A model generated the notes under the pieces. It ran no database searches, had not been told where the DNA came from, and was given only the letters and a program-made list of their open reading frames with translations. From contig JAPPNA010000104.1 in assembly GCA_028873925.1 (NCBI GenBank), positions 504 to 35,117 on the forward strand: a DNA stretch of 34,614 nt, given 5' to 3'. Shown in pieces: positions 27,533-31,368 of this stretch. How positions within the stretch are numbered: the first letter of the stretch is position 1; each line of letters begins with the position of its first letter. The position numbers and the translations under genes were made by a program. The stretch is from Bacteroidota bacterium (GTDB taxonomy: Bacteria; Bacteroidota; Rhodothermia; Rhodothermales; Bin80).

Positions 27533-28477
27533 CTATTTAACGTCAATGTCCACGCCCCTGTCGCGGGCAGCTGCGATCCATTCCCGCAGCCGTTCATCAA
27601 GTCCGTCAACTGATGATCCAGAGTACAATGCCGAGATGCGACAGCGGTCAAGCAGGATCTGATTCTTCCCGTAATGGTCTGCGTCTTTTTCCGACAGGGC
27701 TCTTGGGACGAAGAAAGCCGGAACTGGATCCACCGCAAATGTTCCAATGAGGTTATTCTTGCACCACACGTCCGGGCGCAACTCATGTGCCTTTTCCTTC
27801 CACCTTCTGCCGGTAGCGCACTGGCCAAAAAGTATGAGCTTGGAGGCTCTTCGGTCGGGGAATTCTCGCCACGCCACGATATCAAGGCCATCGTCCTTTA
27901 ACTGATGTAATCCTTCGCGGTCCTTGCACCCTTCCCCTTCACGCAGAAGCCCGACCAAGTCTCTCACCGCATCACGGAATCCCGTTGAGAGGGGGTGCCT
28001 CCTGGGCCATCCGAATACTACGGCCATATTGCCGCTACCGAGATACTGGCCAGCCGCCGAGGCACTCAATTCCTCAAACAGTTTGTAGACGGATGTTCCA
28101 TCGTGATGGGCATCATTGCTGCCAAGGGATACCAGGAGTTGGAACGCGTAGGCGGGCGAAACACCATCCCGAAACTCAATCCCCTCTTTCGTCACGAAGA
28201 AAGGATATCTCATATCCAACCCACAGGCCTTTGCCCGGTAGGTGAGGACCTCCTCCCAATTATTGAGGATGGTCTCGTACGGTTCCATGCTCCGCTCCCC
28301 CTCGGCTGTGATACCGTTTGCAGGTTCTTGAAGGGTTTCAGTCGCTTCGTCCTCTGACATCGCACTCCGCAGCTGCCCGATAATATCTGTCCAAGCCACA
28401 AAACCTTCAGGGTCGGCCATGCACGCCCATTCAAGGAGATCGACAGTGTCCTCCTCCGCCAAGCTAGGATCCACCAT
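27533..28477 (-). CDS. PD-(D/E)XK-like nuclease candidate paired with ParB-domain protein
   Basis: A 314-residue protein of unknown function. The central region has a nuclease-like arrangement: FEELSASAAGQYL (residues 134-146), then DDGLDIVAWREF (195-206), then LILFGQCATG (214-223) and RRWKEK. This resembles the D...(E/Q)xK core of Mrr-like restriction nucleases (Asp in DGLDIVAW, Gln in GQC), but the usual lysine after Gln-Cys is alanine, so a catalytic lysine would have to come from the nearby RRWKEK. I have a general memory of uncharacterised proteins with this DGLDIVAW/FGQCATG pattern, but no name. Its ATG shares one base with the stop of the ParB-like gene (TAATG), so it is translated with that gene. 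A defence role is inferred from that pairing and the neighbouring restriction system. Confidence 0.72.
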   Translation of the reverse strand: MVDPSLAEEDTVDLLEWACMADPEGFVAWTDIIGQLRSAMSEDEATETLQEPANGITAEGERSMEPYETILNNWEEVLTYRAKACGLDMRYPFFVTKEGIEFRDGVSPAYAFQLLVSLGSNDAHHDGTSVYKLFEELSASAAGQYLGSGNMAVVFGWPRRHPLSTGFRDAVRDLVGLLREGEGCKDREGLHQLKDDGLDIVAWREFPDRRASKLILFGQCATGRRWKEKAHELRPDVWCKNNLIGTFAVDPVPAFFVPRALSEKDADHYGKNQILLDRCRISALYSGSSVDGLDERLREWIAAARDRGVDIDVK

Positions 28478-29586
28478 TATGACTCATTTGATGTCATGTG
28501 CCGGTGGAGCGATTTCGCAAGTTTTACCAACTTTTTCGCTGTTTCAACTAAGTCCTCCTCGCCGCTGAACCCAGTTGAAACAAATCGCATGGATTCCTTC
28601 GCGCTTGTCTCGGCCCTGGTCAGCGCTGCACGGAAAAGACGTGCATCGCCGCGCGAAGCGTCCAGCGCTACAGAAAGCTGGTTCCCGTCCTCCAGTAACG
28701 CTACACCCTTTGGCTCCGATAGGGCCTGTGCAAGGTGACGCAGATCAGGATTCTGACGGCGAATCTTCGGCTCAATTTCCTGGCTCACACTTCCGAAGAG
28801 CCAGCGCATTAGGTGTTCCAGAGCGCCTCGGCGTTCGTGTGGGACTGGAGCCTCATTCTCAAGGTCCGCCGCTCCAACACTAAGGTATTCCCGCACGGAC
28901 CTATAGCCCAATGCAGTCCACAGATGGGAAAAGGGGAATCGGCGATGCAGAGTATCATTCGGATCAAAGTTGATCTCGTCTTGTGCCTGCCGGAGGACCA
29001 CATAACCCCGGTAAAGGCGAGTCACTGTTTCGTGGCGGTCGCCGATCCCCGACGCAATTTTCGCGAGACTGAGGCCGAAATCTCTTCTCACTCGGAATAC
29101 GTATTCGGCCTTAGCAATTGAGTCCCACGCCTGCGCTCCATTGATATGCTTGAATCCGACGAACCCCCACAGCCGCTCTCTTGTAGCGCGAATCACCGGC
29201 AGCGTCTGGATTGAATCAAGTACCTCCTGTGTTGGGTCGCTCTCCAATTGGATCCTCAATTGCTTGCGGAGGGCTGGATCCGAAAGGATCTTCACTGCCG
29301 CGAGTCGTCGGTTGCCCTCAACCACAATCAGGTGCCCGCCCTCCTCAATTACGAATAGCTCTTCATGCTTCCAAAAGCCGTTTGCAAGGATTGAATCCAC
29401 CAACTCGTTCACCGACTTATTTCGCCAGAGCCAGCCGAGGATCTTCTCCTGATCCTCAATCGCGAAACTCTTGTCCACCAACCGCGGGTTTTCGGGGTCA
29501 AAGTATAGAGCACAAGGGGGGCGTTCAATGACATCCAAATCGGTCATGATGCGGGATTTACTTGGTTGAATTGATGCCATGCCCAT
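28477..29586 (-). CDS. ParB N-terminal domain protein
   Basis: A 369-residue protein with a ParB/Sulfiredoxin-like N-terminal domain. The strand-turn LYFDPENPRL (residues 28-37) precedes the hallmark EGNRRLAAVKIL (90-101), the nucleotide-binding box of ParB-type CTPases and ParB-like nucleases. The middle has HTH-like features (LSLAKIASGIGDRHETVTRLYRGY); the C-terminal half matches nothing I know. No ParA is nearby, so chromosome partitioning is unlikely. Its stop overlaps the start of the nuclease-like gene. Candidate starts are ATG 29586, 29580 and 29547 (MTDLDVIERP); the longest is given. It begins 63 nt after the NotI-like gene, on the same strand. Confidence 0.78.
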   Translation of the reverse strand: MGMASIQPSKSRIMTDLDVIERPPCALYFDPENPRLVDKSFAIEDQEKILGWLWRNKSVNELVDSILANGFWKHEELFVIEEGGHLIVVEGNRRLAAVKILSDPALRKQLRIQLESDPTQEVLDSIQTLPVIRATRERLWGFVGFKHINGAQAWDSIAKAEYVFRVRRDFGLSLAKIASGIGDRHETVTRLYRGYVVLRQAQDEINFDPNDTLHRRFPFSHLWTALGYRSVREYLSVGAADLENEAPVPHERRGALEHLMRWLFGSVSQEIEPKIRRQNPDLRHLAQALSEPKGVALLEDGNQLSVALDASRGDARLFRAALTRAETSAKESMRFVSTGFSGEEDLVETAKKLVKLAKSLHRHMTSNES

Positions 29587-29649: not shown

Positions 29650-30499
29650 TTAGTGCTTCCCGTGGCCATTTTGGGTTTCAGGCTTTTTCTCATGGCAATC
29701 GGGGGAGTCTCTGCCGCAAATTGCTTTCGGACTCATGGCACCTAATGGTCTCTGCGGAATTCCGCATGCTGAAGTACACTCCAAAGATACGACTTCCCAG
29801 TGATGCGGTACCAACCGTAATCTGGGATTCACGCGTACTAGAAGCCAGATGATGTCACCATCATTCAGGTCCGTAGACTCAGCTCCGAATTGTCCTCCGG
29901 TAGCTTCAAAAAGCGGTTGATCAACCGCCACGGCAAGCTTCGCTCCCCAACGCCGCATGGTTGGACCCTTCACCTGCAGCTGCGGCATGAGTCGCTGAGC
30001 GCTTGAATACCGCCAGTCGGGATGCCGATTTGGTGTTGGCTGCGGTACCTCCGCAGTATCGCTTGACAGCAATTGCTCAAAATCTGCCCGCATACCCGAG
30101 CCCGAAAAATAGACAGCCTGAACCTCAAGCCCGAACCATGATGCTGCCTCTCTATCGCCTGCGATGACCAAATCAATTCGACCTGCAGGTCTCCCAGTGA
30201 TCGGGGATTTCATGAATGGAACTTCACATGCCATGTGCACCTCCCTGAAGCCCGCTATTCGGGCAAGCCATTTCGGCACAATATCCGCCTCTCCCAGCCG
30301 CTTGGGGCAAATGGTCACAGGCGGGCCGCTGGGGCCCCGGATCGAGCAGACACCGCCCTTCTTGCTGCACGGCGAATTCCTTTGGATAAATGGGCAATTC
30401 GGTCCCCTGTAAGGCAGATTTGGCTAGAGATTGCCTTTCCGGGGCTGGCAGACTCTCAAGTGGGCGACCAAACCACTCAGCGATTTGGTATCGAGCCAT
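29650..30499 (-). pseudogene. NotI-family type II restriction endonuclease, frameshifted
   Basis: A restriction endonuclease of the NotI family split over two frames. The first piece (from ATG 30499) begins MARYQIAEWFGRPLESLPAPE. The second frame carries NCPF, PCSKKGGVCSIR and TICPKRL (metal-binding cysteines), IDLVIAGD, GLEVQAVYFSG (catalytic region), RLMPQLQVKGPTMRRWG and IIWLLVRV. Removing one G from the GGGG run at 30404-30407 joins the frames as LQGPNCPF without a stop, giving about 282 residues. An intact second part alone is open from GTG 30318. The break is either a sequencing error, a real inactivating mutation, or slippage at the G run. Its ATG shares a base with the methylase stop (TAATG), so the two form a restriction-modification pair. 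The recognition sequence is unknown; NotI itself cuts GCGGCCGC. Confidence 0.8.
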
Positions 30500-31368
30500 T
30501 ATTCAAAGAGCGGTTTCGGAGTGATGACGAGCTCAAGTTGCTTGCGACGATGGGTATTCTTCATCGAAAGCGTTACCGCGTGAAAGCCGAAATGCCGAAC
30601 CATGGACTTAATCTCAGGCACCGCATCGTACGTCATGAGGAAATTATTCTGAAACTTAGCCATAAGGCTGAACAGTGCTCGGTGATCAACACCGGCATGA
30701 GCGTACAATCGTAGGCCCGCTTGTTTGCCACCCTTTGCGGTGTAAGGTGGATCGACAAATACGGCTGCTCGGCTCCCCCATCCTCGGAGAATGAAAGGCA
30801 GCAGCTTCATAGCATCGCCCTCTACAAATGAAATTCGATCCTCCACCTTGCGGATAGCCTCCAGACGGGCACACAGGGTGCTCGGATACCACCTTGAACG
30901 CAGCCCTCGCCCGCCTTCGCCATGGCTCAATAATGAAGCCCCCTGCGCGAGAATACCGCCCCGCCGAGTCCTGTTGAGCACAAGTGTTCGAAATCCCTGA
31001 TCCAGGACCGACTTCGGGGTGGCCTCCATAAGATTTCTCATGGAATCTGGAGTGGGATCAAATGCTCCGATACGCTCAATCAATCCGTCCGGACTTTCAA
31101 GGGCTGCACGCCAGAATGCAGCCACTTCGCGATCCAGTTCCACCAGCAATACTCGATCCACAAGGTCCTCCATAACTGCCGTAAGGGCCACCACACCCCC
31201 TCCGGCAAAAGGCTCAATCAGCACTTCGGACCGATTCAGCTTAAGCCACTCTCTTACATGAGGTACAAACCATGTCTTTCCGCCGGGGTACCTCAGCGGG
31301 CTACGCTGTGGTACGCTCGCCACATTCACAACCGGAATGCGAGATACAGCAAAATCCACATCTTCCAT
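30499..31368 (-). CDS. Dam-family DNA adenine methyltransferase
   Basis: A 289-residue N6-adenine methyltransferase of the D12/Dam class. SPLRYPGGKTWFV (residues 23-35) and EPFAGGG (52-58) form the AdoMet site and FVDPPY (204-209) is the catalytic motif. KNTHRRKQLELVITPKPLFE closes the fold. The frame is open to 31740, but residues before MEDVDFAVSRIP are Cys- and Pro-rich and not family-like, so ATG 31368 is chosen. The stop overlaps the NotI-like gene's start, as expected for a restriction-modification operon with the protective methylase first. No controller (C) protein gene is seen upstream. Confidence 0.88.
   Translation of the reverse strand: MEDVDFAVSRIPVVNVASVPQRSPLRYPGGKTWFVPHVREWLKLNRSEVLIEPFAGGGVVALTAVMEDLVDRVLLVELDREVAAFWRAALESPDGLIERIGAFDPTPDSMRNLMEATPKSVLDQGFRTLVLNRTRRGGILAQGASLLSHGEGGRGLRSRWYPSTLCARLEAIRKVEDRISFVEGDAMKLLPFILRGWGSRAAVFVDPPYTAKGGKQAGLRLYAHAGVDHRALFSLMAKFQNNFLMTYDAVPEIKSMVRHFGFHAVTLSMKNTHRRKQLELVITPKPLFE

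Follow-up and report, generated by a model that had tools for sequence, protein, structure and literature searches.

The overlapping gene pair described here, which encodes a ParB-family protein and a predicted nuclease designated X, probably supplies restriction in a restriction-modification (R-M) system as yet without a name, with modification supplied by the adjacent DNA methyltransferase. The window, i.e. the whole stretch of 34,614 nucleotides that was analysed, comes from a genome assembly of 3.9 Mb in 185 contigs, and the features discussed below are as follows:

27533-28477, minus strand: X, 314 aa, with a predicted winged-helix N-terminus (residues 1-105) and a predicted PD-(D/E)XK nuclease domain (residues 106-300)
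27791-27883, minus strand: nuclease core of X, D199...Q219-x-A221-x-G223-x-x-W226-x-x-K229, from the family alignment, codons checked on the sequence
28477-29586, minus strand: ParB-family protein, 369 aa, with a ParB/sulfiredoxin NTP-binding fold (residues ~18-150), a ParB-type helix-turn-helix (HTH) domain (residues ~153-300) and a helical C-terminus
29296-29319, minus strand: P-motif EGNRRLAA of the ParB-family protein, residues 90-97
29650-30499, minus strand: NotI-like restriction endonuclease gene (Pfam NotI, E 1.4e-27), frameshifted near 30407-30411
30499-31368, minus strand: D12-class DNA methyltransferase (Pfam PF02086), start assigned by homology (ORF extending to 31740), with intact DPPY and FAGGG motifs

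Both parB and X are open and intact, and the overlap between them is a single base, TAATG at 28479-28475, just as an earlier note on this DNA had described. The coupling of a ParB fold with a PD-(D/E)XK fold in a defence-like context, also put forward there, is borne out by the conservation of the pair and by the predicted folds.

Searching with the ParB family gave 413 relatives from GTDB contigs and 149 from IMG/VR, from which the best 80 of each were taken; the resulting 160 loci are thus a selected set of best-scoring relatives, and the figures describe this ParB subfamily and not all ParB-like proteins. In 153 of these 160 ParB-selected loci, ParB is directly followed by X in the same orientation, in most cases at a distance of a few bases, and the co-occurrence that the earlier note had wished to see counted is far above chance. 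As for the seven others, ParB is near a contig end or followed by scant sequence in L070, L085, L144 and L184, and in L094 X is truncated. Dereplication at 85% ParB identity leaves 139 non-redundant pairs, the ParB-X pair spanning at least 18 bacterial phyla as well as plasmids and P2-type prophages. At the level of genomes, profile searches find X patchily, in 9/99 genomes of the order and 10/394 of the phylum. Plasmid-borne relatives of X are found in Rhizobium, Neorhizobium, Mesorhizobium and Persicobacter; those of the latter three genera directly follow ParB, and the ParB search added Vibrio to the carriers. A scan of genome contigs with X alone found no relative, and a pattern search from a six-row X alignment proved unworkable, the sequences being too diverse. 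In two related genomes (L033 in G007:C15 and L034 in G009:C82), degraded X fragments near similar neighbours are probable remnants of lost copies. On a Neorhizobium plasmid (L003, 1-9000), the pair is found downstream of genes for a cytosine methylase, a DUF262 protein, a Z1-domain protein and a protein with a PD-(D/E)XK motif, i.e. a defence-like cluster.

Detected with profiles made from the three largest neighbour clusters, a methyltransferase is present within 3 kb of the pair in 128 of the 139 non-redundant loci and within 300 bp in 124, with a median gap of 1 bp. The earlier note had taken the pair for a stand-alone module lying behind an R-M operon, a view that does not hold since the methyltransferase is the constant third partner in the family. 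Among the 128 loci, this partner is drawn from three unrelated classes, namely D12 m6A (69), C5 (35) and N4/N6 (24), and Pfam searches of representatives confirm the assignments (PF02086, PF00145 and PF01555). Each class has its own placement: in most cases D12 enzymes precede the pair in the same orientation and C5 enzymes lie downstream and convergent, and N4/N6 enzymes are downstream on the same strand. Across the ParB tree, the methylase class switches at least 11 times. We read the constancy of the pair alongside an exchangeable methylase as the signature of a restriction half, so that the D12 methylase upstream of the pair in the window is likely part of the module; the pattern would be that of a restriction module acquiring a new cognate methylase whenever its specificity changes. 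The window methylase, which matches PD-Lambda-5_B (E 3e-49), is the probable modification enzyme cognate to ParB-X. Two features expected of an R-M system are seen in the family: an adjacent methyltransferase (128/139), and a predicted nuclease fold with conserved catalytic residues.

Eleven of the 139 loci have no nearby methylase, about eight of which are not accounted for by contig ends. Such loci would suit a stand-alone or abortive-infection system, in which ParB-X would respond to phage DNA or nucleotides, X would then kill the cell or cleave phage DNA irrespective of methylation, and the methylase would be antitoxin-like or accidental; PD-Lambda-5, which has a ParB front and a D12 methylase in common with the window system, protects E. 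coli and has been described as an RM+Abi system in compacted, prophage-borne form (Vassallo et al., 2022, PMC9519451). This reading is nevertheless improbable when set against a methylase from three unrelated classes in 128/139 loci at a median gap of 1 bp, and against the resemblance of X to DNA restriction nucleases. As for PD-Lambda-5 itself, its shared parts and its experimentally shown defence also speak for the R-M reading. The ParB front of its A protein aligns with the window ParB over residues 19-260 (hhalign probability 99; PD-Lambda-5_A homologue P0001), but PD-Lambda-5 encodes one fused A protein of 430-500 aa in place of a separate X gene, and the window ParB matches only N-terminal positions of the A profile. 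X as the counterpart of the PD-Lambda-5_A C-terminus was considered and rejected (hhalign probability 0.3 percent), and the window system is therefore not filed as PD-Lambda-5, the C-terminal half of the A protein being unrelated to X. On a Bradyrhizobium contig (L048, 8173-9513), a PD-Lambda-5_A homologue directly follows a ParB-X pair, so that two related ParB systems adjoin one another.

In the window, the methylase has a second possible owner. The R-M operon that the earlier note had seen behind the pair is real as regards its D12 methylase and its NotI-like gene, but the latter is frameshifted: the intact NotI-like homologue of L094 aligns to the two halves of the window gene in two different frames, hence the gene is broken in this assembly, through either mutation or sequencing error. 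Judging from its reading frames, it is probably non-functional here, and the NotI-like protein as an active restriction enzyme in the window is disfavoured. For the window only and not for the family, it could be argued that the D12 methylase is the partner of the NotI-like enzyme, with ParB-X as an unrelated neighbour, given that the start of the NotI-like gene overlaps the methylase stop (TAATG, translational coupling) and that L094 combines an intact NotI-like gene, a methylase of the same clade and a truncated X. In close relatives such as L009, however, a methylase of this kind immediately precedes ParB and no NotI-like gene is present, and in the window it is the NotI-like gene that is broken and ParB-X that is intact, which leaves this attribution rather unlikely. 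L094 (7098-9166) is the reciprocal case of the window: X is reduced there to its N-terminal part, after which come an intact NotI-like gene in convergent orientation and a methylase of the window clade. The comparison, comprising two cases only, would fit a competition of two restriction modules for a single methylase. Of note, an intact NotI-like protein of 358 aa is also encoded near a ParB-X-C5 methylase locus on a viral contig (L166, 9236-10312).

Regarding X, the AlphaFold model built from 60 family sequences (pLDDT 91, pTM 0.90) exhibits a PD-(D/E)XK nuclease domain, in agreement with the nuclease fold that the earlier note had expected from structure prediction. With VIA-align, residues 106-300 match predominantly restriction or related nucleases (Z up to 7.3), including N.BspD6I, MspJI, FokI, AspBHI, EcoT38I, Bse634I and HindIII (Z 4.5-7.3) as well as PaqCI, Can2, BsmI, BsaWI and SgrAI, and residues 3-105 match winged-helix proteins. 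Foldseek gives MspJI as best match (E 1.3e-3), with no match at E <= 0.001. Since Z does not exceed 7.3, a value not decisive for any single match, and the Foldseek E value is at best 1.3e-3, the nuclease call draws on the consistency of the list and on the conserved residues. Taken together, they support the PD-(D/E)XK fold of the modelled protein well. The other searches gave no strong match to a named family: the X profile has no match among PDB sequences, X has no covering model in PADLOC, Pfam or NCBIfam, PADLOC run on five divergent X proteins gives no match, and a BFVD fold search yields nothing strong, the top match being an Mrr-like domain (E 0.026). In PHROGs, X corresponds to 14650/3984, where its function is unknown.

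The predicted fold of X is the one found in MspJI, AspBHI, FokI and N.BspD6I (Z 6-7, 131-142 residues aligned), but X has no sequence match to these enzymes, has a ParB partner, and in most members is devoid of a lysine at the classical position. The top rank of MspJI in Foldseek and the presence of AspBHI among the VIA-align matches could point to a type IV-like enzyme cutting DNA methylated by others, in the manner of MspJI. The likeness is, however, limited to a catalytic domain common to many enzymes, and a resident methylase of varying class would turn self DNA into a target, such that we regard a type IV-like activity as highly improbable.

The motifs DDGLDIVAW and LILFGQCATG highlighted in the earlier note are both found in X and contain D199, invariant in 134/134 X homologues, and Q219, a glutamine in 128/134. 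The same note considered the expected lysine replaced, which is right insofar as A221 stands where this lysine is expected, but the lysine is not lost, K229 being present instead. In the family, position 221 is a lysine in 47/134 homologues and otherwise A, G, T or S, and position 229 is a lysine in 87/134; 46 homologues have only the classical QxK lysine K221, 86 have only K229, eight residues later, one has both and one neither (R229). A lysine thus occupies either position, but never both, in 132/134 homologues. This exclusivity does not amount to many independent tests because the swap represents about two events on the tree; a reading as many independent co-variations was accordingly rejected, independent pairs being unable to reach significance. 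From the alignment, the window X most likely uses the relocated lysine K229 and is not dead, K229 presumably acting as functional substitute for K221.

The replacement of the classical lysine by A221 in the window, along with the membership of its partner in the ParB family, would be compatible with a regulatory or partition role, in which ParB-X controls methylase expression or the segregation of the element, with X as an inactive nuclease fold. Two observations leave very little room for it. On the one hand, D199 is kept in all 134 homologues and a lysine at 221 or 229 in 133/134, a retention indicative of a selected active site; on the other hand, no ParA-like family was recognised, by eye, among the recurrent neighbours of the 139 pairs.

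As for the ParB-family protein, its profile retrieves ParB (4umk, E 6e-5) and Noc among solved structures by sequence, and its model (pLDDT 92) matches KorB, ParB and Noc (Z 9-10), with KorB covered over residues 18-313 including the DNA-binding domain. The ParB box singled out by the earlier note, EGNRRLAAVKIL, is present as residues 90-101; the GxRR P-motif is near invariant, with E90, G91, N92, R94 and L95 invariant in 48 homologues. In PHROGs, the protein is 3694, again of unknown function there. The fold, the P-motif and the combination of an N-domain with an HTH DNA-binding domain are those of the ParB, KorB and Noc CTPase clamps, from which the window family differs by its coupling to a nuclease and a methylase and by the lack of a ParA neighbour recognisable by eye. 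As the ParB fold is able to bind CTP, ATP or GTP (PMC12704722), a role as CTP-gated clamp or sliding sensor is plausible from the fold, though we put it forward tentatively. Among the segments of ParB, the HTH shows the strongest conservation at moderate to high identity, and segments of X change faster. The HTH as variable target reader is thus disfavoured; because it is the most conserved segment and is not diversifying, target reading is more likely located in X, or in the X-ParB complex.

Coupling of a ParB-superfamily domain to a nuclease has precedent in defence with the GmrSD-type ParB-HNH type IV enzymes (PMC12839542), but these are of HNH fold and modification-dependent, whereas ParB-X combines a PD-(D/E)XK fold with a resident methylase. 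The PADLOC candidate PDC-M38A is alike in its ParB part, the window ParB aligning to positions 57-357 of the 715 of its profile (E 3.5e-15), but X is without any PADLOC match; no paper on PDC-M38 was found in the literature search. Among the openly readable papers searched, no description of the ParB-X-methylase trio was found either. The earlier statement that no named system contains this pair therefore stands for the profile libraries and papers searched, where no named system matches X.

The trio is also part of phage genomes. About 15-16 of the 139 loci adjoin P2-type terminase, portal or gpA genes, and a ParB-X-C5 methylase trio is carried by the named phages WPhi (gp98-gp96-mth), vB_EcoM-12474III, where portal and gpA flank it, and Pseudomonas phage vB_PaeM-D14A. 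The gp96 of WPhi is a member of the X family (hhalign probability 100), and its trio is located as follows:

L195, 96-3266: ParB-X-C5 methylase trio of phage WPhi

In papers of the 1960s, lambda was reportedly restricted in E. coli W, and prophage W is said to affect T-even phages. The laboratory strain E. coli W carries the WPhi trio, as do KO11FL and LY180, which derive from it; matches to the trio occur in 139 of 5,426 complete E. coli genomes, 103 of which cover at least 80% of it. The paper on the E. coli W genome terms the strain restriction-minus (PMC3032704).

In the R-M reading of ParB-X and its methylase, the methylase would mark host DNA, and on unmarked DNA, ParB as a nucleotide-gated clamp would load and spread, and would bring or license X to the DNA, where X, as a predicted PD-(D/E)XK nuclease, would cut by means of D199, Q219 and K229 (or K221 in sister proteins). 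The data show a constant gene pair, a methylase neighbour from three unrelated classes, nuclease and ParB folds in the models, a conserved catalytic pattern, and mobile and prophage locations; the cutting by X, the protection by methylation, the gating of ParB by CTP and the part that reads the site are inferred. A further step, which goes beyond the probable R-M assignment and which we judge possible but somewhat short of an even chance, is that of a new R-M architecture in which a nucleotide-gated ParB clamp would load onto unmethylated DNA and spread along it, and would switch on a separate PD-(D/E)XK nuclease with a relocated lysine. Such a module would work irrespective of the kind of methylation and would have changed partners among m6A, C5 and N4/N6 methylases at least 11 times.

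If true, this reading would add a widespread R-M architecture, which the profile libraries searched leave unnamed or count only as an orphan methylase, and would place ParB-type clamps among the components of immunity. Considering PD-Lambda-5 and ParB-X side by side, it would also suggest that a ParB sensor came to be joined with effectors of different kinds.
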